Shown piece by piece: positions 30,066 to 62,186 of a stretch of DNA of 64,000 bases; within the stretch, counting starts at the first letter, position 1; the number at the start of each line of letters is the position of its first letter. The stretch spans positions 14,508,420 through 14,572,419 of the forward strand of contig OZ038387.1 in the NCBI GenBank assembly GCA_964036045.1, read 5' to 3'. Source of the DNA: Eutreptiella sp. 'Long Island Sound 2002' (lineage: Eukaryota > Euglenozoa > Euglenophyceae > Eutreptiales > Eutreptiaceae). The notes beneath the pieces were generated by a model. That model saw nothing but the letters and a program-made list of their open reading frames with translations. It did not search any database and was not told the origin of the DNA. The translations under genes were made by a program, and so were the position numbers.

Positions 30066-30169
30066 AGCACTCAGGACATTCTATTTTGTCATTTGCAATG
30101 TATCCCAGGAATAGATGAGGACAAGTTAGTACAAGCAATCTAGATATCATCCAATCTATATGCAATTTA

Positions 30170-33350: not shown

Positions 33351-36300
33351 TTAGTTCTTCGACACTTGAGCCCGCCACTCCCAAAGCTGCTTACACTGAT
33401 GCAACTCAGCTGGCGAAAGTTGTTCCCCACATGCAGCCCGAGCATACAACTGAGCCAAGCGAGTATCAACCTGCTCAGCCGAGTCAACCATATTGTGAAT
33501 GTGTGCATGCAATTGATCATTATACGCGGCCTGCTGCGCACTCAGGCCCCCAGGAGCCTGATTCACGGTGGTTAGCGCATGTGAAAGCTCAAGGGCAGCA
33601 TTCAGCTCTTCCTTCAGCGGCGGACCGCTACCCCTACCCTGACCCCTACCTCTTCCCTTTGTAGCACCCTTTGGACCATCCCCTCGCTTAGCGGCCTTCC
33701 TGACAGTTGGCTGCACGGTTCGCTTGGCGGCCACCGGCGGGGGAACAGGTCGTGGTGCTTGTGCACCTGCCACATGGACCTGTGTGGAGGAGGCTCGCAT
33801 GTCCACAAATTGGTTCAGTAGCCTCTCCTCTTCTTCGAGAAAGGCCCCTGCATCCTGTCCCTGGTCGGAAAGATGAGTTGCCACTCGATCCACATTATTT
33901 ATATATTGACGCATCCGGGACTGCAGGTTCCCAAGGGAGCGGACAATCTGCTCGCGTTTCGTTCCGGCTGGCAAATCAGCCCACGAGGAGATGTCGGTCA
34001 ATATAATGTCATCGTCTGTAGCATGGATTGCCACGGGTACCTGCACTGTGGGTAGGGGGAGGCGTTGGCTGCTGCATTTGGCACTGACAAGGACCTGAGT
34101 TGCAGTCTGAAATTGTTTTAAAATAAAAATTGGATTGAACACCCCAAGATGGAAGCCGACTGAAGATGACCGATGATGCAAAACAGCAAAATAGTGACGA
34201 CATGGATGCCCAACTCGGACAGCAAGTCCACAACTACACCAAAACTTCGTATAGGCACCATCCTCAGCCAATGGCTCGAACAGACAAACATAATGTGGAC
34301 AGTTCATGTAACGCGAAGTGCAGCTGGATTCACTTCGCTTTACCTCATAAACTATATTTTTGCCTTGGATTTGGTGCACACGATTGGAGATCGCACAGAA
34401 TCTCGGTAGGTCTACCAACTCCGTCTCAAGTGAATCGTGACACTGTCGATCATAGTTCCATAAGGGTGCCGCCCTGTTAGCAACTATATATTGGGCCTCC
34501 CTGGACATGTCATACTCATACACGAGGTACGCAGTTGAAGCATTCATCTGCTGGAGCATTCTATCAAACGCCCAGCTTGTCACCTTGCCTGAAACGAACT
34601 TGACATAGAATGGGAAGGTCTGGTTAGCTATTTGGTGATTGGCGTGCCGCTGATTCACCATTTCAGTATATTCAAGTTTATAGCCCTCCTTGGAGAGCAA
34701 GTGCAAAACAGATAAAAAAATGTGGTAGTAACCTTTTCTTGTGGTTAGGTGGCGCTTTATGCGGCAATTCAAAGACTCAGCCCTCTGTGTGGACTTGCAG
34801 CCGAAGGTAAAAACTTCTACCTGCCATGCAACACACCAACGGTCAAGACGATGTAGGGGGGATCTGACTCCAAGGTAGTCCTTGACAGTTTTCCAGCGGG
34901 GGTCCTCCAGAATTTTGCGCCAGAGAATATCAGCAGCATCCTTATCTGGGCACTCCTGAACCTGTCGGATGGCGCTCTCAAGAGCAGTGAAATCGTGTTG
35001 CTCGAGGGAGTTTCGGCAGTTTTCGGTAAGATTTTTGTAGATGTGAAAAAGGCAGAGGAAGTGAGCAGTTCGGTCCGGGGGGAAAACCCTGGGAACGGAC
35101 CCCAAGAGGGCGTATGCAGCATCACTGAACAAAACACGGGGTGCACAACCGGTTGCCTTTATCCACTCCTGCCAGAGCCACTCATAATCCTGTGCATTTT
35201 CACTGCTTGGCATGCAGCCCTGAGCCAGGAGAAGGGTTTGGCCATGTTCGTTGATACCGCAAAACAGGGCCAATGCCTCGCCGTACCAATTCGATTTGTA
35301 CGTGTTGTCTTCAAAAATGACTTGTGCATATTTTCTGGCGTTTTTTACTTGCTCTGGCGTCATAAAAAACCATCTTCGTACAACACCAGTGACTGGGTCA
35401 GGGGCTTCATGATTGAAATACCAGGCAGGATCTGCCTGTTTGAGCATTTTCAGGTGGTTAATCAAACGTGCAAGATCATTTGGGCCCATCTTGCGTTCGA
35501 TGGACTTGAAAAAATTTTGGATGTGCTGGGTTGAAAACCCTTTGATTGCTGGGTACGCGTCCTCGCTATATTTCTTCCTCAAATTTATAAGAATTTGCCC
35601 CGGCATTTCACGGTGCTCATACGCCCGCTCAATGTCGTGCCAGAGCTCATCAGGGAGGGCTGATTTGTCCAGTGGGGGGGCCTCCTCCTCGTCAGGCCAC
35701 CAATGGTCAGAGTGGTCCCAATTACACTCGGTTAGCTTCCACAGGCCCGTGCCAGCATCATGGGTTAGCGTTGCACCATATGGACACAAATCAGACTTCG
35801 TGAGAGGCCGGGGATGCTTTTCTGGGCGTGCTCTACTGGTCTCCTTTAGGGGCCCGTGTTGTTTTAGGCGTCCCCAAATGCGACAACCAATACGTGCCCA
35901 ATTACTCCCCCCTGCAGACTTGCTGGTAACGCTGTTATGTATTGCCAACTCCCCCCGAATCTTATTCAGGTATGCAACAGCTTCGGTGTGGGACCGGAAG
36001 GTGCAGCCAACCTCGTCTCCACGTCGGGGGGAGTGCTCGGAGGGACAATGGGCTTCGCGTTTCACGCGTTTGCGGGGGGGGATGTCGGGATGAGGTTTAG
36101 GATCAGAACGCGGTGACTGGGCGGCACTAAACTCATGCTTAATTAAGGGGGCCGGATCCGTAGATTCCGTGGGTCCCGAGTCAGATGCCGGGGTTGGAGA
36201 TAGGATGGCAGGGGGGTTTCTTACGGGGGCAGGTCTGGATGAAACTGCCACTTCCGCGGGTTCCGTTTTGACGTTGTCCAACATTGATGAAGAAACAGAT

Positions 36301-36896
36301 CTCAAGGTCGCACAAAATGGATCGTCATATACACCCTCAAAAAGCAAGGTCATCTGGGCGGGGGTAGGGTGGCCCATGGACGCGTGGAGGGACCAAAAGT
36401 TGGTTCGAAGGAAGTCTGCGGTTTGATCCTGCAGCGGGATGCAGTTCCATGCAACACCACCGCGGAGACGAAACAGGACAAGAACCCGTTCGTTACGGAC
36501 CCAGTCACCGGTTCTGCGTGAAACTCTACAAATTCGCTGATCATGAACGGGCACACCAGTGATGATCCTCACCAGATCTGAGATGGCAGCCTCACTGATA
36601 TCCTTAGGCACACACAGAACGAGGGTTCTGTCGGGGAGTGCCACGAAAATGGGGATCTCCTTCCTCGCACATCGTCCCTTGTGGAGTAGTTGACAAGGTG
36701 AGCGTCTTCGCCGCCGTTGGTGGTGTCTACGATGCCTCCGATGGAGAAGGGAGAGAACAACAGCGGCCGAAACGAGACCACAAAGGACTATGGTCAGCCC
36801 CACAAGGCTCCAGCCGGCATCGCAGATTGCGCAGAGCAAAAGCATTAAGATGGACATGTCTACAACGAGAGATGAACGTGAGAGGCTAACCCCCAT
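33351..36896 (-). CDS. MULE/FAR1-like transposase with N-terminal ubiquitin-like domain
   Basis: This is 1181 codons from ATG 36896. Residues 14-52 are hydrophobic, then Arg-rich. Residues 82-147 (IPIFVALPDRTLVLCV ... LFRLRGG) read like a ubiquitin fold ending in RLRGG. A basic NLS-like run is at 273-281 (PPRKRVKRE). A FAR1-type zinc region has C298, C338, C371 and H395/H398. The MULE core has D530 (EDNTYKSN), D592 (LFSDAAYALL ... FLCLFHIYKNL) and E707 (QRAESLN). The SWIM finger is C887-x-C889...C899-x-H901. The C-terminus is Pro/Gly/Arg-rich plus a helix. The DDE triad suggests catalytic competence. The start is uncertain: the ATG lies in a degenerate satellite unit, and a 3' splice site (TTCATCTCTCGTTGTAG) occurs 36 bp on, with phase 1. 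An AT-rich, intron-like segment lies near 34090-34145. Next to a Ulp1-SET gene on the same strand. Confidence 0.85.
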   Translation of the reverse strand: MGVSLSRSSLVVDMSILMLLLCAICDAGWSLVGLTIVLCGLVSAAVVLSLLHRRHRRHHQRRRRRSPCQLLHKGRCARKEIPIFVALPDRTLVLCVPKDISEAAISDLVRIITGVPVHDQRICRVSRRTGDWVRNERVLVLFRLRGGVAWNCIPLQDQTADFLRTNFWSLHASMGHPTPAQMTLLFEGVYDDPFCATLRSVSSSMLDNVKTEPAEVAVSSRPAPVRNPPAILSPTPASDSGPTESTDPAPLIKHEFSAAQSPRSDPKPHPDIPPRKRVKREAHCPSEHSPRRGDEVGCTFRSHTEAVAYLNKIRGELAIHNSVTSKSAGGSNWARIGCRIWGRLKQHGPLKETSRARPEKHPRPLTKSDLCPYGATLTHDAGTGLWKLTECNWDHSDHWWPDEEEAPPLDKSALPDELWHDIERAYEHREMPGQILINLRKKYSEDAYPAIKGFSTQHIQNFFKSIERKMGPNDLARLINHLKMLKQADPAWYFNHEAPDPVTGVVRRWFFMTPEQVKNARKYAQVIFEDNTYKSNWYGEALALFCGINEHGQTLLLAQGCMPSSENAQDYEWLWQEWIKATGCAPRVLFSDAAYALLGSVPRVFPPDRTAHFLCLFHIYKNLTENCRNSLEQHDFTALESAIRQVQECPDKDAADILWRKILEDPRWKTVKDYLGVRSPLHRLDRWCVAWQVEVFTFGCKSTQRAESLNCRIKRHLTTRKGYYHIFLSVLHLLSKEGYKLEYTEMVNQRHANHQIANQTFPFYVKFVSGKVTSWAFDRMLQQMNASTAYLVYEYDMSREAQYIVANRAAPLWNYDRQCHDSLETELVDLPRFCAISNRVHQIQGKNIVYEVKRSESSCTSRYMNCPHYVCLFEPLAEDGAYTKFWCSCGLAVRVGHPCRHYFAVLHHRSSSVGFHLGVFNPIFILKQFQTATQVLVSAKCSSQRLPLPTVQVPVAIHATDDDIILTDISSWADLPAGTKREQIVRSLGNLQSRMRQYINNVDRVATHLSDQGQDAGAFLEEEERLLNQFVDMRASSTQVHVAGAQAPRPVPPPVAAKRTVQPTVRKAAKRGDGPKGATKGRGRGQGRGSGPPLKEELNAALELSHALTTVNQAPGGLSAQQAAYNDQLHAHIHNMVDSAEQVDTRLAQLYARAACGEQLSPAELHQCKQLWEWRAQVSKN
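36456..36653 (-). other. ubiquitin-like domain ending RLRGG (within transposase)
   Basis: Residues 82-147 of the transposase ORF share ubiquitin's order: a first strand (PIFVAL), a second (RTLVLCV), a helix (SEAAISDLVRIITGVP), the HDQRI turn equivalent to ubiquitin's 'PDQQRL', and the last strand ending LFRLRGG. A diglycine terminus followed by further protein (VAWNCIPL) is the layout of a precursor cut by a Ubl protease. Confidence 0.6.
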
Positions 36897-38219
36897 TATT
36901 GATTCACAAAGGTCCTCTGATGCACGAACTTGATAGGCTACCCCCTGACTATTGGTTTACCAAGGGCCTCTGATGCACGAACTTGATAGGCTACCCCCTG
37001 ACTGTTCATTTACTGGGGGCCTCTGATGCACGAACTTGATAGGCCACCCCCTGACTATTGACTTACCAGGGCCTCTGATGCACGAACTTGATAGGCTACC
37101 CTCTGACTATTGATTTACCACGGGCCTCTGATGCACGAACTTGATAGGCCACCCCCTGATTATTGATTTACCGGGGGCCTCTGATGCACGAACTTGATAG
37201 GCTACCCCCTGATTATGGAGTCAACAAGGGCCTCTGATGCACGAACTTGATAGGCTACCCCCTGACTATTGATCTACATGGGGCCTCTGATGCACGAACT
37301 TGATAGGCTACCCCCTGATTATTGATTTTCCAGGGGCCTCTGATGCACGAACTTGATAGGCCACCCCCTGACTATTGATTTACCAGGGGCCTCTGATGCA
37401 CGAACTTGATAGGCTACCCCCTGACTGTTCATTTACTGGGGGCCTCTGATGCACGAATTTGATAGGCCACCCCCTGACTATTCACTTACCAGGGGCCTCT
37501 GATGCACGAACTTGATAGGCTACCCCCTGACTGTTCATTTACTGGGGGCCTCTGATGCACGAACTTGATAGGCCACCCCCTGACTATTCACTTACCAGGG
37601 GCCTCTGATGCACGAACTTGATAGGCTACCCCCTGACTGTTCATTTACTGGGGGCCTCTGATGCACGAACTTGATAGGCCACCCCCTGACTATTGATTTA
37701 CCAGGGCCTCTGATGCATGAACCTGATAGGCTACCCTCTGACTATTGATTTACCACGGGCCTCTGATGCACGAACTTGATAGGCTACCCCCTGATTATTG
37801 ATTTACCGGGGGCCTCTGATGCACGAACTTGATAGGCTACCCCCTGATTATGGAGTCAACAAGGGCCTCTGATGCACGAACTTGATAGGCTACCCCCTGA
37901 CTATTGATCTACCTGGGGCCTCTGATGCACGAACTTGATAGGCTACCCCCTGATTATTGATTTACCAGGGGCCTCTGATGCACGAACTTGATAGGCCACC
38001 CCCTGACTATTGACTTACCAGGGGCCTCTGATGCACGAACTTGATAGGCTACCCCCTGACTGTTCATTTACCGGGGGCCTCTGATGCAAGAACTTGATAG
38101 GCTACCCCCTGACTATTGAGTCAACAAGGGCCTCTGATGCACGAACTTGATAGGCTACCCCCTGACTATTGATTCACCCGGGGCCTCTGATGCACGAACT
38201 TGATAGGTTACCGTCTGAC
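36897..38219 (+). repeat. 53/54-bp satellite array A, about 25 units
   Basis: The unit begins ggcctctgatgcacgaactt, then gataggctaccccctgacta, then ttgatttaccagg. Variants change the last third (tgttcatttact, ttatggagtcaac, tattgatctac). About 25 'ttgatagg' cores are countable. It abuts the transposase start codon, whose first degenerate unit contains the ATG. The same satellite fills introns of the gene at 53.4-56.5 kb. Confidence 0.95.
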
Positions 38220-39823
38220 TCATGTATGGCAAGACTTTGCCCTCCCCAGCCTTGAAGGATGCGGGGGGATGAGGGGGGGTGGAGGGGGAGGTGAGGGCTG
38301 AGCTGGGGGGGAGGGGAGGGAGGGGAGGGGGGAGGGTTGGGGGCCTTGGGGGGTTGGAGGGGGAACTGGGGGGGCCCCGGGATGGGAGGAGGGTGCGGGG
38401 GGGGGGGGGCGGGGGAGGAGGATGTTGGAAAAGCTGGAGGGGCGTAGGGGGGAGAGGGGTGGGGGGGCTTGGGGGGGTTTGAGGGGAGGTTTGGGAGGGC
38501 CCGGGGGGGAGGAGCGTAGGGGGGAGTAAAGGGGTAAAAGGGGGGAACACTGGGGCGTCTGATGTACGACGGGCATCAACTCAATTGGTGATTGAATCAT
38601 GAATCATTCACAGGCCCACGCACGACAGGCAAGGGAACGAAACAAATCAATAGCAGAAGGATTGAGCAAGTAAAATGTGCGAATCCAGTACATCATTTTC
38701 AAGGATCCACTAGCATTTGTTCACACTTGGGTTAAACGGGAGAAACATATGGGGAGTCAGAATCAGGCTGATGACGACAACGCTAACTGACACTTATAAG
38801 CACGTGGGGGTAAACCATAAAAACTGGCCGGTAACCTGGAAACAAAACTCGCTGGCTGGGATTCGGCCCAGAGGGTGCCGTAGCTTGGTTATCGCCCCCC
38901 TGTAGGGGGACCCTCTGGCACTCGAGGTTCCCGGGGTGTGACCACACAGGATCTGCACATCTGTGGCGTCACGTACCTTCCCCTAGCCTCGGTAGCTGCC
39001 TTACCTGCACTAATTGGCCAGCGCCGTTTCCTAGGTCCCTTCTGACCTGTTTTTAAGGTCAGGAACAAGGTTCACGCCCACTTACAACGTGGGTTGGGTC
39101 TGTATAATTCTCTTGAACCCATTTGGGTTCAAAATTCGAGTTCCCTTAACCGCACCCACGCAACTAAGAAGCAAACGACGCAAACGCACTGTAGCTGTGG
39201 TGTCTTTGTAGCCTGTATCAGCCATTACTCTCAAGGTTGGACAAAGGAAAAGGGTTCGGTCCGGTCAAACCAGTCAAATCAGACGCAATGGGGTAGATCT
39301 GAATAATACTCTTGAGGCTAAAAAATAGCGTGTTGTAACAACACCTGCGGTAACAGAAACCAGTACCTGTACCTGCAATCTGTCTCACCTGGTGAAACCA
39401 GATGGAAAGTAAGCAATCTGATCCGGTCAAGATCAGGTCAAATGAGACGAAATAGGGTGCCCTTTGGCTCCAAAAAATGAACAAACACCCCAATAGCGCC
39501 AAAGAGAAAGTCACAGGGCTAGACAAGCGCGTATCAGGTAGGAGGTCAGTAGGAGGTCAAACAGATTTCACCGCGCAGAGAAAGGAACAGAATGCAATGG
39601 AGCCTGGCCTTTCAATATTATATCTGGGTCCGGGAACCGGTATCAAGGGTAAAATTTGCCAAGCAAACAGCAGTCTGCTGACCCCCCCGCCGTAGAAGAA
39701 AATCGCGGAGCCTGCAATGCGTGGGTTCAGATCTCAGTCTTGGTCCGGCGATGCGCTCTGCCACTACACACGCCATCATCTCACTGCCAAAACCACTTCA
39801 CAATGCAAGCACTAGAAAAACTT
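38220..39823. other. G-rich low-complexity stretch and spacer
   Basis: From 38270 to 38535 the plus strand is nearly all G with A/T interruptions. A 51-bp nested hairpin lies at 38868-38918. The rest, to 39823, is the region downstream of the Ulp1-SET gene stop and contains no recognised gene. Confidence 0.5.
38868..38918. repeat. nested hairpin
   Basis: Outer arms ccagagggt (38868-38876) and accctctgg (38910-38918) enclose an inner hairpin ccccc-tgta-ggggg (about 38896-38909). It could be a structured transcript end or a fossil element end; no family recognised. Confidence 0.55.
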
Positions 39824-41124
39824 CTAGCGCTTCCAATTAGGGTTACCAGAACCCTCGCGCGAGCCCCCCCACTGATCCTCCAACCCAATGGCGGTCTCAT
39901 CGGGGAGATAGACCACCCATGCAACTTGGGTGGTTCCCCCCTTTTCGGTTTCCCGCTCCACCTGCCGAAAGTTCCTACCCCCTGCAAGCCGCTTCTGATT
40001 GACGTTCGGGACCCAGAAGGCTTCAAAACTGCTGAGTCGGCCCTTGGAGTCGGGCCGACAGAAGGTGAAAGGGGGGGTGCACTGGTCGGAGTCGACCGGA
40101 GCGAGGGGGAGATAGGGGACGGCCTTTTCTGGTGGCAGGAGCCACTGCGTCGGATTGCCCTTGCTGAGCATCTCCTCCACCTCAGCCTTCGCCTTCTGAA
40201 CGGGGACAGACCTCTTCATCTGCCATTTCCCCCCCCAAACAACAAACTTGGACAGAGTTGTCCAACAAAAACTTGGATCCCGAACGTCAAACTGCTGCCT
40301 CAAACCTGCTCCCTGCACCGGCAACGACCCCCTACGAATGAACTCTTTAAAAAAATTTGCCGTTGCAAACGTGCAACGGTACGGACCCCCATCGACACGA
40401 GCCCTCTTTGCCTTGGGCTCGTCAGGCTCAACGCCGCAGGGGGGGCTGACGGTCGAGCTCTTTCCCCAATGCTCGATCCGCGACTGCAGATCAGGCATCT
40501 TAGCCAGCGCCCTGTCCACCACCACCTGACAGATCCGCCTGATCCTCGGCGAATCCAAGCCTCCAGCTTCCCAGACCAGCAGAAACCAGCTGGACTTGCC
40601 CCTCGAATCCTTCCTGCACTCGGCAATGACCGAGATGCAGTGGCCCATCCCTCCCCCAGTCCCTCCACCGCCGTCGACGAGCTTAATGGCATGACCATTA
40701 ACCCTGCAAAGGACATGCCCATACACCCTGTCCTTCACCCTATCGTACACGGACTTGTCCTGGGTCTTGATCGTTTTTTTGCCAGGCGGAGCTACCAGGT
40801 GCTCCGCCCGCCACTCAGCCCAATCCAGCGTCGCCCCCCACCGGCTGTCGACACCCATAGCCCTCTCTGCCCGGACAAAAAATGTCTTCTGGCGGATACC
40901 ACGCGCTGCAGCTTGGTATTCCGCATCATACCCCCTTAGGTCGATTCCGACCTGCAGCCACTGACCCGTCTGGCCGTACACGTCCTTCCTATTCTGCACC
41001 GAAATCACCTCCCACTTACCACCCACAAACACCATTTCTACGACACCCCCAGGAGCAGCCCCCTCGAACTCGTAACAAAACCAGGGAGGGTAAACGCCTG
41101 CAAGTCGCGACCCAGCCGTGATGA
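39824..41124 (-). CDS. Ulp1-SET gene, exon 7 distal part (novel C-terminal region)
   Basis: About 433 codons, continuing in frame from 52111-53361 once the LTR element and one AGTCG copy are removed (GGD|FITAGSRLAG). The sequence is globular-looking (PPWFCYEFEG, GQWLQVGIDLRGYDAEYQAA, MGHCISVIAECRKDSRGKSSWFLLVW) with a glycine-rich loop (DGGGGTGGG). No known domain was recognised. It ends ...EGSGNPNWKR and stop at 39824-39826. In the present state this part can be translated only from the 3' LTR: that LTR carries the ATG at 41293 (gag start), which is in the same frame, so a 489-aa product with a 55-residue gag leader is possible. Confidence 0.75.
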
Positions 41125-41129
41125 AGTCG
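41125..41129. repeat. LTR element target-site duplication (3' side)
   Basis: agtcg, matching 52111-52115 exactly and directly bordering the LTR end. Confidence 0.92.
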
Positions 41130-41662
41130 TGAAAGTGCTGCCCTAGGTCGTGTGTGGTGCCGGAGGGCTCAGGGCCGGCAAGACCGGGGGGGCAGGCACG
41201 CGAGGAGTCGACCTGAACGCTGCTGTTGGGGGCAGAACCGGATACACGGACACCAACGGAGGCAAGAGCGGCGATAACGGAGGCAAGATCCATGCTGATT
41301 GTTATCCGGCAAAAAATCCCAGTCTATGAAGAAAATTGATGCGGATTATCCTAAGTACATCTGAGTGTCCATATCTGTCTGAAAAGATTTATATAAATCC
41401 GATTGTGAAAAAATATTTGGCTGATTTGGCTTCGGGCGCGCATCAGCGGCAATTGGCGATTCCAGGTAAATGATCTGAACGCGACGGATTTACGATGAAT
41501 GGACCGCGGAATCAGATCCGGCATATCAGAAATATATAGGTCTGATCCTGAGACTGAGCTGCGAGGCGGCGATTCCGCCGAAGCAGAGAAAATGACCAAA
41601 ATGTAGTCAATCTGGGGCAGATCTGTGAAAATCTGAGCAGATGGGGGTTGGCCGCACTTACA
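41130..41662 (-). repeat. 3' LTR (533 bp)
   Basis: On the minus strand it starts TGTAAGTGCGG and ends ACTTTCA, the usual TG...CA ends. It is the same length as the 5' LTR at 51578-52110, and I count five substitutions between them (about 99% identity). It has a TATA-like palindrome gatttatataaatc at 41386-41399 and an ATG at 41293. Confidence 0.95.
41386..41399 (-). promoter_or_regulatory. TATA-like palindrome in 3' LTR
   Basis: gatttatataaatc is a perfect 14-bp palindrome containing TATATAA. It lies about 95 bp upstream of the LTR-encoded ATG (41293). The identical site is in the 5' LTR at 51834-51847. By position it is the likely U3 core promoter. Confidence 0.55.
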
Positions 41663-41672
41663 CTCCCCCTCC
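41663..41672 (-). other. polypurine tract
   Basis: GGAGGGGGAG directly precedes the TG start of the 3' LTR on the minus strand. This is the position expected of the plus-strand primer for reverse transcription. Confidence 0.88.
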
Positions 41673-43521
41673 AAAAACACACTGGGGTGTGTCGCTACGT
41701 CAACGAAGAACGTAGTGCGGGTAAGTCCCAGAAAAAAAATAGAAATGTAGCCTCGATGGGGCGAAATCTGCTTGATCTGACCTGATTTGGGCTGAATTGG
41801 CGCTGAATCAGGATGGATGAACCTGAAATGAGACAGAATGAGGAGTGACGAACAGTCCTCCGTGCAGTAAAACATTAGGTCAAGGGCTAAAAAGCATGCA
41901 AACGTATCGAGAATCGATACCAAACCATGCCCTGGTTGAGAATGAGGTAGATTATTGGTGGATTGAGTAGGAGAATCAAGAAATGGAGTGACATCTCGAC
42001 GCTCTGGCACAGTTTAGCTGTCGCGGGCACGCTACGGTGTCCTCCACGTACTCTACATCGTGTTACTCCCGCTTTTCTCGTTCTGAAAAGTGCAGCATGT
42101 GCTTCAGATTTGGCGCATCTGGTGGATGATCACAAGATTCAGCAAGATTGAGAATCAATTTGAGCAGAGATGAAGGAAATGAAACAATCACAGAGAGGGA
42201 AAACAAATACAAATGTAGTCTGCAGGCCCTAAGTGAACCACAGCAGGTAGGGATGTTCTTCTGTTCACTTAGTTAGGCAAAGCCGTAAACAGATCTTCGA
42301 GGAATGAGAGGAGATGACAAGGAAATCAACCTAAATTGTCCTAAAATGAGGCAAATTCCCTAAGATGAAGGTGAAATGAAGCGGAATGTCTAGAACTAAA
42401 ACTACTAACACTTTCGTTTAGACTAGAGTTAATATATATTGTCGTTTATTCAGCTGAGTTATGCTTTCCGGCACGTTGGTTCGCGAGCATCCAACAGATT
42501 CATTGAAAATGTGGATCATGTGATGATGCATCATGATGGGACATGATAGCCCTGGATCCTTGGCATGTAACGCGCCGAAGGTTCGCTGAAGGCGCTTTAC
42601 TGACAGTACATAACTGAGAGACACCGAATAGTTCTTTATTTACAGTGGCGACGGTGTCAATCGACTTGGACAAGGCCCATCTTTCGATTGAGTCCCACAA
42701 GACACTTGGATTCACCATTTTCGACAGTTTCAGGTCGGATTGAGCTCACATTGGCGTGTGCCAAAAATACACTGAAGCTTACGGACTTCAGAGGTTGCTT
42801 TTAGAAGTCCCTAGAGCCTCTGTCTGAAGGTTGTCTGAACAATTGACGTCGGGGTTTCGTGCAACAATGGCAGAATGAAGGACAAACCTGAGAAATTCAA
42901 GGCAAATTTGAGGATCCTGGATCTGAATCTGGACTTTGGCTTCCGCATCACGGCAAATGAAGGTAAGATCTGAGTTCCTGGCGTCGCATCTGGTGCAGCC
43001 AGTACTACAGGGGGTGCCTGTAGGGGTGAATGTCGCTGGCCAGCGTTTTTACTATGTACATTTGCTTCCATCTGCACGAGTAGCCAAATTCCAAAGATGC
43101 ACAGACCAACAGAGACAAGATTACCCCGAATCTGCCTGAATTAAGCCTGAGTTTGGTTTTTTCTGAACACGGCAGCACACTCCGTGGCTTTCGGCAGCGT
43201 ATCTACGCCTTGTCTGCCGAACGGAGACCAAAGAAAAGTTGATTGACGTCAAATTATCAAACATTCGCAGTTCTCCACATCATGACATAATCAGGAAGAA
43301 TGAACAGTGGATTGAGCAGAATGTGGTTCTTTCAAGTCGTCAGAACACTCACATTGGAATAAGTGGTCGACGGGGCGAGGCTGGAGCTTTTGTAGGAGTT
43401 GGACATGCAAGGGTTTCGAACCTACACCCTTGAGCCCTAGCGACGAGTGCCATGACGCCCTGGACTAGACGACTGTTACCCAGATTATGGCGTCGGCGAC
43501 TCAAGTCACGACGGGTCTCCC
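41673..43521 (-). other. long non-coding 3' region of LTR element
   Basis: About 1.85 kb between the chromodomain ORF stop and the PPT. No frame longer than about 90 codons with protein-like sequence. Such long 3' spacers occur in some gypsy elements; no env-like frame was found. Confidence 0.6.
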
Positions 43522-48018: not shown

Positions 48019-48021
48019 TCA

Positions 48022-48705: not shown

Positions 48706-51700
48706 CTAGGCGTTCTGACCTCCAGTAGCTGCGTTAACATTGTGGACACACCCTGATTTGTCGACCCACTCATCTTGGAACGGATCATCTGCTGGATTCA
48801 AGGCATTTTCAACGTAATCTCGATCCGCATCGGACACCTGATCTGCACCTGAGACCTGATCCACACGATGGTTGCCCTTTCCACGTCCACGGCCACGGCC
48901 GCCGGATGATGGACCTCCACCGTCGCCACGCCCTCTGCCCTTACCAGAGAAAGGGGTCCCAGAAGGATTTCCCTTACCTTTACCCTGGGATCCTGGAGCA
49001 TTTCCCTTGTTTGTACCGGATTGAGGGGTTTGGCCTGGATTTCGATTTCCGCCTCCGGCGTTGCTGTTGGGATTTTTCTGGCCGTTCGGCTGCCCACCGG
49101 AGCCGAATGGAGTCCGATTTCCTGTGCCTTGGGACCCGCCAGGGCCTCCAGGATTTTTGTTTCCACCGGAGGGGGTCGGATTCCCTTTTCCAGCCTTCCC
49201 ACCATGCACCTGTCTGTCATTCCTGTCTGAATTCTGCGAATTACTGATATTTTCACCAATCACCTTGTGATCGTAAGGAGACCATCGGTGATTATCAGTA
49301 GAATGCGTCTTAGCTCGGTTCGTAGAACCTAAAAGAAGGCAGATGCTACAGTGCTGCTGAACATTCCGGGTGTCATTCACCTTTTTGTTGCCCTTTTGGG
49401 CCCCATTTTGGGTGTTTTGCTGGGTATTCTTGTTTCCCCCAAGACCCTCATGGAAATTCTGATTGGCGGCGTCGGCGAGCCGCTCAACCTCTTCCCAGAG
49501 TTCCTTCGGGGTGAACGAAAACACCCAGTTCTTGGCCTTCAGGCGATGGCCATGGAAACTTACTCCCCTGTTGAGGACTTGGACAAACAAGTCCCGATCC
49601 TCGTGTTCATTAAACTTGATTTTCCACGTCTCCTCAGTGAATTTCACCTTGGAGAAGGACGTGGGGGAGCACTTTTGAAGTGCCTCCCTGACGGAAAACC
49701 TATTGGCAGAGGCATCGAAGCCTTCCACCTCCGCCCACCAGGTCTTGACCTTTTCTTCGGACTGTTTGTTCCGAAGGGTGGCGGCAGTTTCTGAGGGGAT
49801 CTTGTCAAAAATCAGATTTTTCAGCTCGGCACTAGAAAATTTTTCGCCTGAATGTTCAGCTTCTTCCACTAAATTCCAGAAGCGCTGTTTTTTGTCTTGC
49901 ACTTCGTGCAAGATTAATCGCGAGAATGAAGGAAAATTCTTCAACATTTGGTGGTAGTGGTCCTCTGGCAGCCGGGATCCACGTACCTCCAACTGTTCCC
50001 ACACCTCATCAAAGGTAAGGGGGGAACTTGAATCCTCGCGATCACTCCAAGTCCTGAGCCAAGTGTTGGCCGGCGCTCCCTCAAGGCAATCCAAGAGGGC
50101 CATCAGGAACTGATCATCTTGGAGTTTTTGAGTCTTAACCCACAGTTTAAATTCCCGTTGGAACTGAGGCCAACGTCGGGGGTTCCCATTATACTTCGGT
50201 TGCTTGGCAACGTGACGAAGTCGCAAGGAAGTAGGATTAAGAAGCGAATCCAGCCCAACACCGGCCGTAATGGCAGACACCTTGGCGGCATCATTCGCCA
50301 CACCAGCTCCGGCGAGGGTCTGGGCGAGCAACAGCTGGGCTAAGGTATTGGAATCAGCAGCAGGAGGGGCAGTACGGGAGGCAGTTCGCTTGGCATTCTG
50401 AGCCTCAGTCCTAGCCTTCGCCGTCCTACTCTCAGAACGAGAGATTTTAACCCTTTCCTTTAGCTTGGTCCTGCTGATCCTTGCATCGGTGGTCCTGGAG
50501 TCCACCGAAGGAGCAATTGAAAAAATTTCTGTCGCCTCCTCCGACGGCTCTGTTGCTTGTTCCACCGATGAGGCGCCCTCAGACCGCATGTGCGTCTTGA
50601 AAAGATCTTTTATTCCCAGCGTTTGAATGATGAGGCTCATTTGATCTTTGAGCAATTGGAGCTCAGAATCTCGCTGGAATCTGCAGGAGCAGTCGGCAGG
50701 ACAGTACATACCGTGTCCTGAAGGGCCTGAGCAGGCTGTCGGACTGCTGATCTCGGTGGTCCGCAGCCAGGAGTCCACTTGGGGAGCTCCTTCAGCCCTG
50801 ATTTCCAGGCTTGCCTGCCTGGCCGCCTCTAAAATTCCTTCCTCAACCGCGGCGGCTAGATCGTCGCGGATGGAAACAGGGGGATGAGGGGCGGAGGGCC
50901 CGGGAACAGGTGCCGTGCCCTTCTCCTTCGGGAAGGGGCTTGCCTCCCAGATCTGCAAAAAAATGGCAAAAGTGTCATCCTCTTGAGAACGCCACCACAT
51001 CCTGGTATTAATTTCGTCCTGAAGGAGGAAAAAATATTCCGTTAAAAAATCAGAGGAGATTCTTTCTTGTTCGATCAGCTTAGACGAGGCTAAGAGACAA
51101 AGGGCCTCAAGGGCCTCAAGGTTACGGGTCACTTCTGGGGACAAATGGTCGCCCCAGTGTGCCCAAGAGGCTGGTCGATTATAGCTAGGTACCTCACCTG
51201 GACCACCCATCTCAATGTCGTTCAGATCGGCGTCAATGGTCTCGAATGTTGGACCTCCGTAAGGAAGGTTGGTACCTGCCAGGTCCGTAAGCTCCACCGG
51301 AGCGTTGCCATCGTCGTAGGCCGGCGGATTCCAGCTGCTCGATGGCCAATTTCGACTGGGATCATAATGGTAATCTGGGTCTCCACAGCTGCTGATGTGC
51401 GCCCTTCTTGGGCAGCTTGGGCTTGCGCAAGGCATTCCTCTCAAGGCCTCGTTCGCGCAGCACCATGGCAGCGTAATCGTTACTTCTCCAGAAGCGGCGG
51501 GGTCTACGGGGCCGTACTGGGGAGCGGGCTGTGGACTGAAGGGCTGTGAAGCAACATTCAGGTAGCCTCTGCTACCATGAAAGTGCTGCCCTAGGTCGTG
51601 TGTGGTGCCGGAGGGCTCAGGGCCGGCAAGACCGGGGGGGCAGGCACACGAGGAGTCGACCTGAACGCTGCTGTTGGGGGCAGAACCGGATACACGGACA

Positions 51701-51741
51701 CCAACGGAGGCAAGAGCGGCGACAACGGAGGCAAGATCCAT
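48706..51741 (-). CDS. LTR element gag
   Basis: 1011 codons from ATG 51741, which lies inside the 5' LTR. The first 55 residues are LTR-encoded and the frame then reads through the PBS (HGSRGY). The N-terminal half is Pro/Ser-rich. The capsid-like 'retrotrans_gag' core begins near residue 513 (KYNGNPRRWPQFQREFKLWV ... LLDCLEGAPANTWLRTW). A knuckle near residue 797 reads CSICLLLG...THSTDNH, a CCHH-type variant. A Gly/Asn/Pro/Arg-rich nucleocapsid tail (GKGRGRGDGGG) ends at TAG 48706-48708. The downstream phase remains open into the protease, so this TAG could be a readthrough stop. Confidence 0.9.
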   Translation of the reverse strand: MDLASVVAALASVGVRVSGSAPNSSVQVDSSCACPPGLAGPEPSGTTHDLGQHFHGSRGYLNVASQPFSPQPAPQYGPVDPAASGEVTITLPWCCANEALRGMPCASPSCPRRAHISSCGDPDYHYDPSRNWPSSSWNPPAYDDGNAPVELTDLAGTNLPYGGPTFETIDADLNDIEMGGPGEVPSYNRPASWAHWGDHLSPEVTRNLEALEALCLLASSKLIEQERISSDFLTEYFFLLQDEINTRMWWRSQEDDTFAIFLQIWEASPFPKEKGTAPVPGPSAPHPPVSIRDDLAAAVEEGILEAARQASLEIRAEGAPQVDSWLRTTEISSPTACSGPSGHGMYCPADCSCRFQRDSELQLLKDQMSLIIQTLGIKDLFKTHMRSEGASSVEQATEPSEEATEIFSIAPSVDSRTTDARISRTKLKERVKISRSESRTAKARTEAQNAKRTASRTAPPAADSNTLAQLLLAQTLAGAGVANDAAKVSAITAGVGLDSLLNPTSLRLRHVAKQPKYNGNPRRWPQFQREFKLWVKTQKLQDDQFLMALLDCLEGAPANTWLRTWSDREDSSSPLTFDEVWEQLEVRGSRLPEDHYHQMLKNFPSFSRLILHEVQDKKQRFWNLVEEAEHSGEKFSSAELKNLIFDKIPSETAATLRNKQSEEKVKTWWAEVEGFDASANRFSVREALQKCSPTSFSKVKFTEETWKIKFNEHEDRDLFVQVLNRGVSFHGHRLKAKNWVFSFTPKELWEEVERLADAANQNFHEGLGGNKNTQQNTQNGAQKGNKKVNDTRNVQQHCSICLLLGSTNRAKTHSTDNHRWSPYDHKVIGENISNSQNSDRNDRQVHGGKAGKGNPTPSGGNKNPGGPGGSQGTGNRTPFGSGGQPNGQKNPNSNAGGGNRNPGQTPQSGTNKGNAPGSQGKGKGNPSGTPFSGKGRGRGDGGGPSSGGRGRGRGKGNHRVDQVSGADQVSDADRDYVENALNPADDPFQDEWVDKSGCVHNVNAATGGQNA
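51565..51577 (-). other. primer binding site
   Basis: TGGTAGCAGAGGC directly follows the 5' LTR end on the minus strand. It differs at one or two positions from the TGGTATCAGAGC complementary to initiator-Met tRNA, so that tRNA is the probable primer. Confidence 0.85.
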
Positions 51742-52110
51742 GCTGATTGTTATCCGGCAAAAAATCCCAGTCTATGAAGAAAATTGATGCGGATTATCCT
51801 AAGTACATCTGAGTGTCCATATCTGTCTGAAAAGATTTATATAAATCCGATTGTGAAAAAATATTTGGCTGATTTGGCTTCGGGCGCGCATCAGCGGCAA
51901 TTGGCGATTCCAGGTAAATGATCGGAACGCGACGGATTTACGATGAATGGACCGCGGAATCAGATCGGGCATATCAGAAATATATAGGTCTGATCCTGAG
52001 ACTGAGCTGCGAGGCGGCGATTCCGCCGAAGCAGAGAAAATGACCAAAATGTAGTCAATCTGGGGCAGATCTGTGAAAATCTGAGCAGATGGGGGTTAGC
52101 CGCACTTACA
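51578..52110 (-). repeat. 5' LTR (533 bp)
   Basis: This is a direct copy of 41130-41662 with five substitutions seen. It carries the TATA-like palindrome at 51834-51847 and the gag ATG at 51741, so transcript start and gag start both lie in the LTR. Confidence 0.95.
51834..51847 (-). promoter_or_regulatory. TATA-like palindrome in 5' LTR
   Basis: gatttatataaatc, identical to the 3' LTR copy. It lies about 93 bp upstream of the gag ATG, which would give a short leader if transcription starts about 25-30 bp downstream of the site. Confidence 0.55.
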
Positions 52111-52115
52111 AGTCG
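52111..52115. repeat. LTR element target-site duplication (5' side)
   Basis: agtcg, identical to 41125-41129. Confidence 0.92.
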
Positions 52116-53361
52116 CCCCCCAAAGAATTCTGGTCACCCCAGACCGTGGTCAAAGGCCTGACGAACCTCCCTGTCCGCCAGTCCATCTTGAAACAACAGG
52201 TCCGGCTTTCAACCTGTGTCAAGTTCGACCCCCCCATCTCGGACCACAGCAGACGCACCCTGTCCCCCTTCCTGACAATAAACTGCCCCCCATCAACATG
52301 GGTCACGGTGGCCTGGCTGGGATAGGTCACCTTCGAAGAAAAATACTGGCGACCCACCAGGGACCCGTCATCAGCATACAGTTGCCCTGCAGGCAGGGCA
52401 GAGGCGCTGGGAAGAATGTTCTGGGTGGTTAGAACTGGCTGGTTGGAACCTTCTGCAGCAGGTTCATCAGGGTCAGCAGCATCAGCAGGTGGAGGCGAAG
52501 GGGGCAACGGGTAATTTACGCCATAGAACATGGCCAGCTCGGTACTCGCCTTCACCTCCCGCCGGGTCCAAACCCTGGGGGTACCGTCATCCAGGTGGAT
52601 GATCACGTCGCAATCCTCCTGGCGAGGGCGAGCGTTGATACGGCTAAAAATATTCCCCCTTTTACCCCCGTCCACCCAAACCCCCCTCCCAGTCTTTGAA
52701 TCTGCCCCCCCGCCCTTGATGCACAAAACCTTATCCCCCCTACCCGTCAGGCAATCCGGTGCCGTCCCTTCAATCGTTTCCCCCTTGTACTCCCCCAGGC
52801 AGGTGTCCGCCGCAATATCCACCTTCGTTTTCACCCCCCGGCCTTCCCCAATCGTGGACTCCACGATCTGGAGGTGCTTCCCCATAACAAAATGCGGCCG
52901 CTCCACCACCGCCCGTTGCCCCTCCTCCTCCCCCGCCCCCGTGTCCGTGGCTCGGCGTTTTTGACCCCTCGTTGTTACCCCCTCCGGTTGCTTGGCCTCC
53001 GCCGCCCCCGTGTCCCTCAGTCGGCGTTTCGTTGTGCTTCGGCTCCTCGTTGTGACCCCCTCTGGTTGCTTGGCAACCCCCCCGCCCCCCGCTTCTGCCC
53101 CCTTCCGCCCACCCTCCGCCTCCGCAGTCTCTGTGTCCTTCTCCTTCCCCTTCTCCTCCTCCGTTTTCTTTGCCTCCTCCTCCTCCTCCTCCTCCTCCAC
53201 CAACACGTCGGTCGGGGTTGGGGTGACCACCGGCGACTGGGGCCCGGGGCTGGGCGAGCCTTCTCCAAGAAGCTGGCGTTCAGGACTTGGGCTTGGGCTT
53301 CGCTCCTTCTCATAAGCCCACTTCTCCGCGGGCTCCTCTCCCCTTTCCCTCTTGCCGAGAA
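52111..53361 (-). CDS. Ulp1-SET gene, exon 7 proximal part (SET domain)
   Basis: The exon starts after TTTGTATTCAG (3' splice site, AG at 53362-53363) in phase 1. It reads VLGKRERGEEPAEKW, a Pro/Ser region, a poly-Glu run, and two tandem copies of KQPEGVTTR-type basic linker. Then comes a SET domain: GEGRGVKTKVDIAADTCLGEY (GxG at about 52835-52849), NIFSRINARP in place of RFINHS, and ELAMFYGVNY in place of ELxxDYG. SET domains methylate lysines with SAM. The Asn is kept, but the NHS motif is divergent, so activity is open. The frame is cut at 52110 by the LTR element; the in-frame TAA arises from LTR sequence four bases in. The host frame resumes at 41124. Confidence 0.8.
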
Positions 53362-53444
53362 CTGAATACAAACAGCAAGGATCAGAGTTAAATTCTCAAG
53401 AAGCACAGCAGCAGAAGAAAACACTTACGCATGCAATTACATAC
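53362..53444 (-). other. intron 6 of Ulp1-SET gene (83 bp)
   Basis: Donor G|GTATGT at 53444 and acceptor TTTGTATTCAG at 53362 flank the intron. Both neighbouring exons leave phase 1. A second strong donor, GTAAGT (53423-53428), lies inside and would leave a stop in the exon. Confidence 0.7.
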
Positions 53445-53627
53445 CAAGGGCTCTCACATCCCCTCGGTGCAGGTCCCAGGACGCCTTCCTCTTCTTCTCC
53501 CGCTGCGGCTTCTCCCTGTGCCCCGCCGTCCTCCACCAATCCGGGTCCTCCCCCTTGTCCGACTCGAACCCGGCCAGCAGCTCGGCCACCGCTTCCTTCG
53601 TCGTCGCCGACACTGGACTCGCAGGAC
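53445..53627 (-). CDS. Ulp1-SET gene, exon 6
   Basis: 183 nt (61 codons), phase 1 at both ends. Acceptor CACCTATAG, donor G|GTATGT. Encodes a hydrophilic stretch with EAVAELLAGFESDKGEDPDW, then basic KPQREKKRKASWD (NLS-like). No domain recognised. One satellite-like unit (ggctaccccctaatta) lies just upstream. Confidence 0.6.
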
Positions 53628-53736
53628 CTATAGGTGCAGGCATATGGTTTCGTTTATGAGGGTCTTTGTGATTCAGTAATTAGGGGGTAGCCTATCAAGG
53701 TTGATCATCAGTGGTGTTGTGCAATCAGTGGCAGAC

Positions 53737-53817
53737 CTGCTTCTGCCCCTTCACCCTCCGCTTCTGCTCCTTCTTCGCCCTCCTCCGCTGCTTCCTCCAC
53801 TTCGGCTTCAGCTGCAC
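53737..53817 (-). CDS. Ulp1-SET gene, exon 5 (acidic)
   Basis: 81 nt (27 codons), phase 1 at both ends. Acceptor CTGATCCAG, donor G|GTCTGC. Encodes Ala/Glu/Gly-rich AAEAEVEEAAEEGEEGAEAE. Flanked on both sides by satellite units. Confidence 0.5.
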
Positions 53818-53869
53818 CTGGATCAGAGGATGTGCGTTCTATTGCAAGGACCAGCCTAGCAATGTCGTG

Positions 53870-54095
53870 CATCAGGGGCGGTAAATCAATAGTCAGGGGG
53901 TAGCCTATCAAGTTCGTGCATCAGAGGCCCCCGGTAAATCAATAGTCAGGGGGTAGCCTATCAAGGTCGTGCATCAGAGGCCGCTGGCAAATCAATAGTC
54001 AGGGGGTAGCCTATCAAGTTCGTGCATCAGAGGCCCTTGTTGACTCCATAATCAGGGGGTAGCCTATCAAGTTCGTGCATCAGAAGTGCCTTTGG
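53870..54095 (-). repeat. satellite units in intron 4
   Basis: Four to five 53/54-bp units in the orientation opposite to array A (gggggtagcctatcaagttc, then gtgcatcagaggcccccggt). Confidence 0.9.
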
Positions 54096-54239
54096 AACTG
54101 TTGATGTGTTGACCAGGATCGCGGTGGTGGTAATGGGTGGTGACTGTGGGACTCGTCAGATGGCGGGTGCGAGAGGGGCTAAGATGGGTCGGGGTGTGTT
54201 GATTGGGCAATGGCCTGTGCCGCCCGAGGGGTGAAGCAC

Positions 54240-54533
54240 CTGCAGCGGCTTTCTTCTCCGCCTCCAGCTTGGCTGCCTCGTCTGCAGCGGCTTTCTTCTC
54301 GGCATCCAGCTTGGCTGCCTCGTCTGCAGCGGCTTTGTTCTCGGCCTCCAGCTTGGCTGCCTTGTCTGCAGCGGCTTTCTTCTCGGCCTCCAGCTTGGCT
54401 GCCTCGTCTGCAGCGGCTTTGTTCTCGGCCTCCAGCTTGGCTGCCTTGTCTGCAGCGGCTTTGTTCTCGGCCTCCAGCTTGGCTGCCTCGTCTGCAGCGG
54501 CTTTCTTCTCGGCCTCCAGCTTGGCTGCCTTGT
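54240..54533 (-). CDS. Ulp1-SET gene, exon 4 (coiled-coil repeats, 7 units)
   Basis: 294 nt, exactly seven 42-bp units, each encoding a 14-residue helix unit (ADEAAKLEAEKKAA or with N for K). Phase 1 at both ends. Acceptor TCGTGCTGCAG, donor G|GTGCTT. The surrounding intron sequence (to about 54090 and 54640) is nearly identical to that around exon 3, so the exon was duplicated with its flanks. Likely an extended, charged alpha-helix; function unknown. Confidence 0.6.
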
Positions 54534-54639
54534 CTGCAGCACGAGGAACAGATGGATGGGGCAGGGGGTTGCATGGGTGATGGCACAGCAAGCGGAGGAG
54601 GAGGGCGGACGGGGGTCGAAGAGTATACGACGCAGAGGG

Positions 54640-55165
54640 TAAACCAATAGTCAGGGGGTAGCCTATCAAGTTCGTGCATCAGAGGCCCTTGGTAAATCAA
54701 TAGTCAGGGGGTAGCCTATCAAGTTCGTGCATCAGAGGCCCCCGGTAAATCAATAGTCAGGGGGTAGCCTATCAAGTTCGTGCATCAGAGGCGCTGGGTA
54801 AACCAATAGTCAGGGGGTGGCCTATCAAGCTCGTGCATCAGAGGCCCCCGGTAAATCAATAGTTACGGGCAGGCCTATCAAGTTCGTGCATCAGAGGCCC
54901 TGGGTAAACCAATAGTCAGGGGGTAGCCTATCAAGTTCGTGCATCAGAGGCCCCTGGCAAATCAATAGTCAGGGGGTAGCCTATCAAGTTCGTGCATCAG
55001 AGGCCCCTGGCAAATCAATAGTCAGGGGGTAGCCTATCAAGTTCGTGCATCAGAGGCCCCCGGTAAGTCAATAGTCAGGGGGTAGCCTATCAAGTTCGTG
55101 CATCAGAGGCCCCCGGTAAGTCAATAGTCAGGGGGTAGCCTATCAAGTTCGTGCATCAGAAGTGC
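54640..55165 (-). repeat. satellite array in intron 3
   Basis: About ten 53/54-bp units in minus orientation between the two coiled-coil exons, with variants such as 'agttacgggcaggcc'. Confidence 0.93.
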
Positions 55166-55315
55166 CTTTGGAACTGTTGATGTGTTGACCAGGATCGCGG
55201 TGGTGGTAATGGGTGGTGACTGTGGGACTCGTCAGATGGCGGGTGCGAGAGGGGCTAAGATGGGTCGGGGTGTGTTGATTGGGCAATGGCCTGTGCCGCC
55301 CGAGGGGTGAAGCAC

Positions 55316-55525
55316 CTGCAGCGGCTTTCTTCTCCGCCTCCAGCTTGGCTGCCTCGTCTGCAGCGGCTTTCTTCTCCGCCTCCAGCTTGGCTGCCTTGTC
55401 TGCAGCGGCTTTGTTCTCGGCCTCCAGCTTGGCTGCCTCGTCTGCAGCGGCTTTCTTCTCGGCCTCCAGCTTGGCTGCCTTGTCTGCAGCGGCTTTGTTC
55501 TCGGCCTCCAGCTTGGCTGCCTTGT
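55316..55525 (-). CDS. Ulp1-SET gene, exon 3 (coiled-coil repeats, 5 units)
   Basis: 210 nt, exactly five 42-bp units, phase 1 at both ends. Same splice-site sequences as exon 4. Flanks 55143-55315 and 55526-55640 match those of exon 4 almost base for base. Unit number (5 versus 7) is the main difference between the two exons, showing repeat-number change after duplication. Confidence 0.6.
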
Positions 55526-55631
55526 CTGCAGCACGAGGAACAGATGGATGGGACAGGGGGTTGCATGGGTGATGGCACAGCAAGCGGAGGAGGAGGGCGG
55601 ACGGGGGTCGGGGAGTATACGACGCAGAGGG

Positions 55632-56123
55632 TAAACCAATAGTCAGGGGGTAGCCTATCAAGTTCGTGCATCAGAGGCCGCTGGCAAATCAATAGTCAGG
55701 GGGTAGCCTATCAAGTTCGTGCATCAGAGGCCCTTGGTAAATCAATTGTCAGGGGGTAGCCTATCAAGTTCGTGCATCAGAGGCCCCCGGTAAATCAATA
55801 GTCAGGGGGTGGTTTATCAAGTTCGTGCATCAGAGGCCCTGGGTAAACCAATAGTCAGGGGGTGGCCTATCAAGTTCGTGCATCAGAGGCCCCCGGTAAA
55901 TCAATAGTTACGGGCAGGCCTATCAAGTTCGTGCATCAGAGGCCCTGGGTAAACCAATAGTCAGGGGGTAGCCTATCAAGTTCGTGCATCAGAGGCCGCT
56001 GGCAAATCAATAGTCAGGGGGTAGCCTATCAAGTTCGTGCATCAGAGGCCCCCGGTAAATCAATAGTCAGGGGGTAGCCTATCAAGTTCGTGCATCAGAG
56101 GCCCTGGGTAAACCAATAATCAG
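55632..56123 (-). repeat. satellite array in intron 2, left arm
   Basis: About nine 53/54-bp units in minus orientation, ending at an inversion point near 56123. Confidence 0.93.
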
Positions 56124-56415
56124 GGCCTCTGATGCACGAACTTGATAGGCTACCCCCTGACTATTGATTTGCCAGCGGCCTCTGATGCACGAACTTGATA
56201 GGCTACCCCCTGACTATTGATTTGCCAGGGGCCTCTGATGCACGAACTTGATAGGCCACCCCCTGACTATTGACTTACCAAGGGCCTCTGATGCACGAAC
56301 TTGATAGGCCACCCCATGACTATTGACTTACCAAGGGCCTCTGATGCACGAACTTGATAGGCTACCCCCTGACTATTGATTTACCGGGGGCCTCTGGTGC
56401 ACGAACTTGATAGGC
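56124..56415 (+). repeat. satellite array in intron 2, right arm (inverted)
   Basis: Five to six units in plus orientation, directly abutting the minus-oriented array at about 56123. Together they form an inverted repeat with arms of about 290 bp and almost no spacer. Confidence 0.93.
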
Positions 56416-56476
56416 TCCCATGGTGAGGCGTAGTAATGTAGTGTCACAATGTAGTGTCGTGCAATTCCTGGCAAAC

Positions 56477-56674
56477 CTGCAGGGAGTTCTTGTGGCAATT
56501 CCTGCTCCGTCTCTTCTCCTCTTGCTTCCTCTCCGGCTGGTGCTGGTGCTCCTTCTGCCGCTTCTCCTCCCGCTTCTTCCGCAGCGGCGACTTCCTTCGC
56601 TGCTCCTCCTTCCGCTGCCTCCACACCTTCCACGTTGCCTGCTTCCGGTCCTCTTGGCTCCTCCGTCTTTGGCA
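56477..56674 (-). CDS. Ulp1-SET gene, exon 2 (acidic)
   Basis: 198 nt (66 codons), phase 1 at both ends. Acceptor TCGCCTACAG, donor G|GTTTGC (weak after GT). Encodes VPKTEEPRGPEAGNVEGVEA, then Ala/Glu/Gly-rich sequence ending EQELPQELPA. No fold recognised; composition resembles exon 5. Confidence 0.55.
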
Positions 56675-56747
56675 CTGTAGGCGACGATGGGAGGACTGCT
56701 GCTGGCATGCATCGGCGAGACGCTCGCCCAACAGTGATATATCATAC

Positions 56748-57414
56748 CTTCCTCTTCTGCCATCTTCACTTGTTCCTCACGACGGTCAGGCATTGTGGAT
56801 ACTGAAGAAGGGGTTCTAGAATCCGGGAAGAGCGCACGATCGGGAACTACATCCGTATGCAGCAGACGTACTGTTCTGTGCCAATTACGTAAAATATTCC
56901 TAAGGTCTAAGTCGCTTAGTTCTAGCGATAGAGGTGACAAATCAACCTCGCTACCGCGTAAAACAAGGGAAACGACCCACTCTGCACCACAGCACGCAAA
57001 CACTGCACAAGACCAACCATCTGGCTGATGTACACAGTGAAATTTCTTAAGGTTCGGGTCGGTAGAGAATGGCCATGGCTGGTGCTGGTTATGCACCTGC
57101 CAATGCCGCTTAAGGAGGTCCCACAGAACGGTTCCACGCTGTTGCCGTTGGGCAGAATCCGGACACAGAGAATCCAGAATCCACACTTCAGGGGACGAGA
57201 GCAGATGAAGAAAAACTGCCACCCACCAGTGCCCCTGCTCGCCACAGACCAAAATAAACCAATCGAGGGCGAAGAGGTTTTCCTTCTGTGGCAAGCACTT
57301 TTTGCGCCAAAGGGTAACAGGCCAGACCCTTCGCTGGAGGTGAAACCAGACCGGGTGGTCAGGAGCAGAGGTCGCAGTGGCATGGGCAGCAACATTGCTT
57401 GGCACCGAAGACAT
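56748..57414 (-). CDS. Ulp1-SET gene, exon 1 of model (C48/Ulp1-like cysteine protease)
   Basis: 222 codons plus one base from ATG 57414 to donor G|GTATGA. Seen: ALDWFILVCGEQGHWWVAVF (catalytic His in HWW), EVWILDSLCPD (catalytic Asp), and VHQPDGWSCAVFACCGAE (oxyanion Gln and catalytic Cys), in the order and spacing of Ulp1/SENP peptidases that cleave after Gly-Gly of ubiquitin-like proteins. The usual WLNDxxI block is missing, so an upstream exon is likely. The frame stays open above the ATG to a possible acceptor CTGTTTGCAG (57445-57454), and a VDDRVDFSYVHIR peptide is near 57480-57520. Neighbouring exons add acidic, coiled-coil and SET regions. Confidence 0.78.
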
Positions 57415-57454
57415 AACGATAGTGTTGACTGAATAGTATCCTGCAAACAGATAT

Positions 57455-62183: not shown

Positions 62184-62186
62184 TCA

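Follow-up and report, generated by a model that had tools for sequence, protein, structure and literature searches.

A MULE transposase beside Ulp1-like protease and SET genes in Eutreptiella: possible remains of one large transposon

Mutator elements that bear a Ulp1 domain are described from hydra, lancelet, Arabidopsis, maize, rice and melon, with the proposal that ubiquitin and SUMO pathways serve transposition (PMC2836005). The location of the domain in these MULEs varies: some carry it in a VANC gene, some in a gene that may run in either direction and some in the transposase itself (PMC2836005, PMC13317346, PMC2528002). VANDAL elements that bear Ulp1 counter silencing (PMC13317346). SET domains are also on record in this superfamily. 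MULE-Phytophthora_1 has SET in 14 members, with terminal inverted repeats (TIRs) listed for just one, and several MULE groups are tabulated without TIRs (PMC6446971), while SET-bearing MuDR and HarbingerS families are described in oomycetes (PMC12730594). The main text of PMC6446971 contains no mention of ubiquitin or Ulp. Ginger1 is a further DDE transposon with a Ulp1 or OTU protease domain, which points to the same ubiquitin/SUMO pathways (PMC2836005).

The window that we analysed, a 64,000-nucleotide stretch of DNA from Eutreptiella, carries on its minus strand, in this order, a C48-like protease gene, a SET gene and a MULE transposase, with arrays of a 53 bp satellite interspersed. An earlier note on this DNA had placed the transposase and the C48 gene on the same strand, which is borne out, and the SET gene is likewise on the minus strand. 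If the window represents one element, it would resemble the Ulp1 MULEs (the Kaonashi/KIU VANDALs of Arabidopsis and the elements of melon, rice, maize, hydra and lancelet) in combining a transposase with a Ulp1-type protease. Judged from the descriptions, it is set apart from them by a Ulp1-like domain in a gene of its own, by a weak J-like stretch that precedes this domain in the full-length relatives, by the SET gene in between and by a ubiquitin-like (Ubl-like) stretch on the transposase. With MULE-Phytophthora_1 and the SET-bearing MuDR elements of oomycetes it would share a SET domain in a MULE lineage, a likeness of description rather than of tree placement. In Ginger1, as described in the cited section, the transposase is of the Gypsy-integrase type and the protease domain is fused to its C terminus (PMC2836005), unlike the arrangement in the window.

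The transposase is encoded by an ORF of 1181 amino acids (33351–36896, minus strand) that matches the Pfam MULE family (PF10551, E = 1e-15), with the catalytic domain at residues 527–622 (35031–35318, minus strand). Asp530, Asp592 and Glu707 are the catalytic residues by motif, together with a CxxH pair (Cys615/His618). A SWIM-type zinc motif, C887-x-C889...C899-x-H901 (residues 887–901; 34194–34238, minus strand), is recognized in the translation by motif alone. These features agree with the earlier description of the ORF as a DDE/SWIM transposase. The start codon as annotated is uncertain; residues 14–65 are hydrophobic and then arginine-rich. Word-based searches of 5.8 billion proteins, with 7992 and 6988 candidates scored, returned as relatives solely the clusters P0001 (205 members) and P0002 (12 members), each 95% identical to the window among the candidates scored. 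The search with the DDE region retrieved P0001 and P0002 again and nothing more distant among its 6988 candidates. Given clusters of this size, the transposase family is multi-copy.

Directly after the transposase ORF, repeat finding locates a minisatellite (31894–33048) with periods of 63, 84 and 147 bp on a 21 bp base. Aphid Phantom MULEs also have a minisatellite after the transposase ORF, a likeness of position alone, and their table row, unlike the window, lists no accessory genes (PMC6446971, in the cited part). Beyond the minisatellite, at 31240–31610, the transposase strand (minus) contains short open stretches (VKRSSYTPHIIDNPDLLSAVRETARRRFEEKDLTFKSF...) that may be a further element gene. 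Several other features lie on the same side of the transposase. Repeated 'aatgtccc' phrases and a 35 bp inverted pair at 30167–30792 are perhaps a small non-autonomous element, and a 1062-residue ORF at 26108–29296 (minus strand), with weak IQ-type matches and internal duplications, is perhaps a host gene. A non-LTR retrotransposon ORF at 6981–10454 (minus strand) has Pfam matches to endonuclease and reverse transcriptase. Directly ahead of its endonuclease is the stretch SNDVHPNPGP, which we take to resemble a 2A-type skipping motif. For the neighbouring ORF at 5454–6965, Pfam gives nothing at E ≤ 0.01.

The C48-like ORF (56362–57414, minus strand) contains all four residues that had been named for a C48 protease. 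His62, Asp81, Gln130 and Cys136 align with yeast Ulp1 in the Ulp1 order and spacing (E = 0.18), and we treat the ORF as a candidate C48 enzyme. With this ORF as query, yeast Ulp1 is the third of nine rows at E ≤ 10, after two beta-galactosidase rows at E = 0.15. With the relative P0008 as query it is the second of six rows, again at E = 0.18. Among six C48 relatives, His, Asp and Cys are kept in all and Gln in five. Pfam Peptidase_C48 matches neither the window ORF at E ≤ 1 nor its 175-residue piece at E ≤ 10, and at E ≤ 1 it does not match P0008, P0009, P0012 or P0014 either, so that the assignment rests on the motif and its order. An AlphaFold model of the protein, built from six alignment rows, has a mean pLDDT of 30.9. 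A GT...AG intron with the frame open on both sides is proposed in the 3′ part of the gene (56675–56747, minus strand); the database model of P0008 reads through it instead. The four long relatives (P0008, P0009, P0012 and P0014) have about 445 further N-terminal residues, none of them encoded in the window. In three of the four these residues give a weak DnaJ match (E = 0.015, 0.054 and 0.1, below the cut-off), with none in P0012. No HPD motif is seen in this J-like stretch.

The 5′ end of the ORF meets a putative second retroelement of the Ty3 type, which would occupy 57341–64000 (minus strand), has its far side beyond the window and apparently lies inside the C48 gene. Its ORF at 60852–62153 matches rve (E = 5.7e-7, 30.2 bits against a cut-off of 32.6) and Chromo (E = 2.9e-6). 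An LTR-like start, TGAAGCAGG, is found at 57684, upstream of the C48 match, and the LTR would end in TTTCA at 57341, next to a putative target CCTCC at 57336–57340. In tblastn, the match of the ORF to P0008 begins at 57339 and runs downwards from there at 97%. Because the C48 gene is apparently split by this element, the start of the ORF would be retroelement sequence. The ATG at 57414 was considered as the start of the protease and was rejected, the first 25 ORF residues being without counterpart in the relatives.

The SET gene is interrupted by an LTR element. The first part of its main exon (52111–53361, minus strand) contains the SET domain and has P0003–P0007 and P0013 as relatives. It falls within an ORF (52106–53371, minus strand) that is SET-like while remaining under the Pfam cut-off: the window piece scores E = 7.7e-4 and 20.3 bits against a curated cut-off of 22.4. 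The SET domain of the earlier note is retained on these terms. The relatives score similarly, P0004 reaching 22.3 bits (E = 1.8e-4) and P0003 20.8 bits, while P0013, in which much of the domain is missing, gives no Pfam SET match. NCBIfam yields weak matches alone, such as that of P0003 to a bacterial-effector model (E = 0.03). Of four rows against the PDB, the top two represent the same bacterial effector in two depositions (E of about 0.3), which we take to be a SET protein. Upstream, we propose a first exon with its ATG at 53643 (53445–53643, minus strand), based on an open frame and a GT/AG intron at 53362–53444; the six SET relatives show no such exon.

The inserted element (41130–52110, minus strand) is an 11 kb retroelement of the Ty3 type. 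Its LTRs are 98.4% identical over 547 bp in a self-comparison, and it is flanked on both sides by CGACT (52111–52115 and 41125–41129), a target duplication. Reverse transcriptase and RNase H are found within 44641–47721 and a chromodomain within 43522–44526; its gag-like ORF (48706–51741) has no Pfam match. Beyond the insertion the SET gene resumes with a second part (FITAGSRLAGVYPP...; 39824–41129, minus strand), which was delineated by tblastn of the six SET relatives. All six read from the 52.1 kb end directly into 41128 and onwards, and the nested element is absent from them.

A unit scan confirms the satellite, of 53 or 54 bp in the earlier note, that was said to link the genes: 55 units of 53 bp are present in six blocks at a threshold of at least 33 of 53 matches, the best of one shuffle reaching 28. 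Twenty-five units lie ahead of the transposase (36909–38231, minus strand). Between the C48 and SET genes, blocks of four, ten and nine units have the opposite orientation (53880–56106, plus strand), and six units adjoin the 3′ end of the C48 gene (56121–56438, minus strand). One more unit, a degenerate one, runs into the first codons of the transposase ORF (score 19, reached by none of 500 shuffles). P0002 starts with the same satellite-derived residues, so that the window is not alone in having this contact. Likewise, the C terminus of P0008, which represents a cluster of 95 members, is translated satellite, as in the window. That database relatives, too, have the satellite next to their transposase and C48 genes favours shared mobility. 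The inverted blocks may mark element borders. Between the satellite blocks there are also two stretches of a 42 bp repeat (54240–54540 and 55316–55532), which could encode a AADEAAKLEAEKK-like coiled coil. A second C48-gene tail, a remnant detected by tblastn, occupies 53708–53871 (minus strand); tail residues of P0010 and P0011 cover 53737–53871 with 47–51% identity (E = 0.002), and its TGA, read from the sequence, lies 64 bp ahead of the SET ATG.

In the protein database, each of the three genes falls into multi-member clusters, with at least 217 members for the transposase, at least 137 for C48 and at least 172 for SET. The transposase count (205 + 12) comes from the 7992 candidates scored for that query. 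The C48 count (95 + 10 + 1 + 9 + 1 + 21) and the SET count (160 + 1 + 2 + 1 + 1 + 7) come from the 7993 candidates scored with a joined C48–SET query. The representatives alone were read for these counts, and the database is silent on whether one genome supplies all members. Viral contigs scanned with all three proteins contain no relatives.

The N-terminal region of the transposase had been read as ubiquitin-like, and this reading stands in part, as a weak resemblance. The stretch concerned, residues 80–147 (36456–36659, minus strand), ends in RLRGG (residues 143–147). When residues 75–165 are compared with the 177,635 distinct PDB sequences using phmmer, three matches reach E ≤ 10 and each of them is a Ubl: two belong to Sacsin and one to a Ubl–eS31 fusion (E = 0.33–0.44). 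A query shifted by a few residues recovers the same three, as is expected of a search that is not independent of the first, and the equivalent piece of P0002 has a single match, again Ubl–eS31 (E = 0.24). The reversed piece has none at E ≤ 10. Between the stretch and ubiquitin the Smith–Waterman score is 42, a value reached in 16 of 20000 trials when the stretch is shuffled and in 63 of 3000 when the full protein is; of the 702 stop-to-stop ORFs in the window one exceeds it, an unrelated ORF of 1087 residues with a score of 44. A protein of this length and composition would be expected to contain RLRGG 0.0018 times; the six frames of the window, 123,903 residues in all, contain it three times, the transposase copy included. 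This last count is one of several observations that would also suit a different interpretation, namely that residues 137–155 form an ordinary β-hairpin with a Gly-Gly turn in a lineage-specific N-terminal region. Pfam gives no match for residues 80–147 at E ≤ 10, and a PDB search with the full-length ORF yields nothing at E ≤ 1. In hhalign the stretch scores 13.9 against a profile of six Ubls, and is beaten by at least four of 31 control stretches (15.7–19.0) and at least four of 200 shuffles (15.8–18.6). The AlphaFold model of the full transposase, built from three near-identical alignment rows, is of low confidence, with block pLDDT values of 35–55 over residues 81–150. It shows a strand–strand–helix–strand order in the stretch, and predicts strands at 137–145 and 148–155 with the Gly-Gly pair as the turn between them (block pLDDT of about 38–49). 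The stretch is also less conserved than the linker, with identities of 58/63 and 62/68 in two relatives compared with 148/153 and 150/153. The PDB matches, all of one kind, and the rarity of the alignment score among shuffles speak against a plain hairpin, which we nevertheless regard as a prospect falling a little short of even and which is compatible with the other readings of the locus. That residues 80–147 are a genuine Ubl is, in our judgement, somewhat probable.

The proposal of a single Ulp1–SET fusion gene fares worse. The two parts are adjacent on the same strand and each has one proposed intron, as such a fusion would have it. The DNA between them nevertheless contains stop codons and some 2.5 kb of repeats, satellite included; P0008 terminates in satellite and the SET gene continues past the nested LTR element. 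The joined query retrieved 12 relatives, not one of which covers both parts, in a search that scored 7993 candidates with a length window of about 450–1430 amino acids where a full-length fusion would have about 1500. We therefore reject the fusion, which we consider very improbable. It is harder to choose between one element and three independent repeat families, that is, a MULE together with C48 and SET genes belonging to multigene families of the host or to other transposons, brought together through a common satellite. A self-comparison of the window finds neither TIRs nor a target-site duplication around all three genes; the earlier note had likewise found no TIRs around the two genes that it considered. 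The inverted satellite blocks and the duplicated C48 tail between the genes point to rearrangement, the member counts are unequal (217, 137 and 172 among the candidates scored) and the host may carry the common satellite as a dispersed repeat. Independent families do not readily account for three genes on the same strand, nor for satellite at matching positions in P0008, P0002 and the window, and we rate them as a real possibility on the low side of even. That the locus is the ruin of a large, high-copy MULE carrying Ulp1-like and SET genes is the likeliest of the readings, although in our estimation no better than evenly balanced.

If the locus is such a ruin, the three genes would have been mobile as one element, the transposase carrying out cut-and-paste of the whole, and two Ty3-type retroelements would later have interrupted the SET gene and, apparently, the C48 gene. 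The protease could strip SUMO or a Ubl from proteins of the element or the host, and the SET protein could alter chromatin such that copies evade silencing; these roles are proposed by analogy with the Ulp1-bearing VANDAL elements of plants that counter silencing. Should residues 80–147 adopt a Ubl fold, the transposase would be translated as a Ubl fusion, and it is a matter of speculation that cleavage after Gly147, by the C48 enzyme of the element or by a host enzyme, would free the DNA-binding part. The Ubl–protease pairing is a speculative, if attractive, extra to the MULE-ruin reading. The complete version, in which one MULE has its own Ubl/protease pair, the RLRGG fusion being cut by the co-mobile C48 enzyme, and a co-mobile SET protein acting on chromatin at donor or target sites, appears improbable to us. 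If true, it would be a single transposon bearing a self-contained modifier switch.

The locus had been put forward as a possible undescribed transposon system. The literature already describes Ulp1-bearing MULEs (PMC2836005, PMC13317346) as well as SET-bearing ones (PMC6446971, PMC12730594), and the novelty of the system shrinks accordingly. What stands is the combination: among the matches listed from the open-licence literature we found neither a MULE with both Ulp1 and SET nor a Ubl-tagged MULE transposase. The locus is probably what is left of a large MULE that carried two accessory genes, each on record by itself in other MULEs. If the three genes are one element, a single MULE would carry the two accessory genes even without the Ubl. 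If the wider reading is true, Ulp1 and SET genes together with a transposase as candidate substrate would make it possible to test in a concrete case why SUMO/ubiquitin proteases are retained by transposons.
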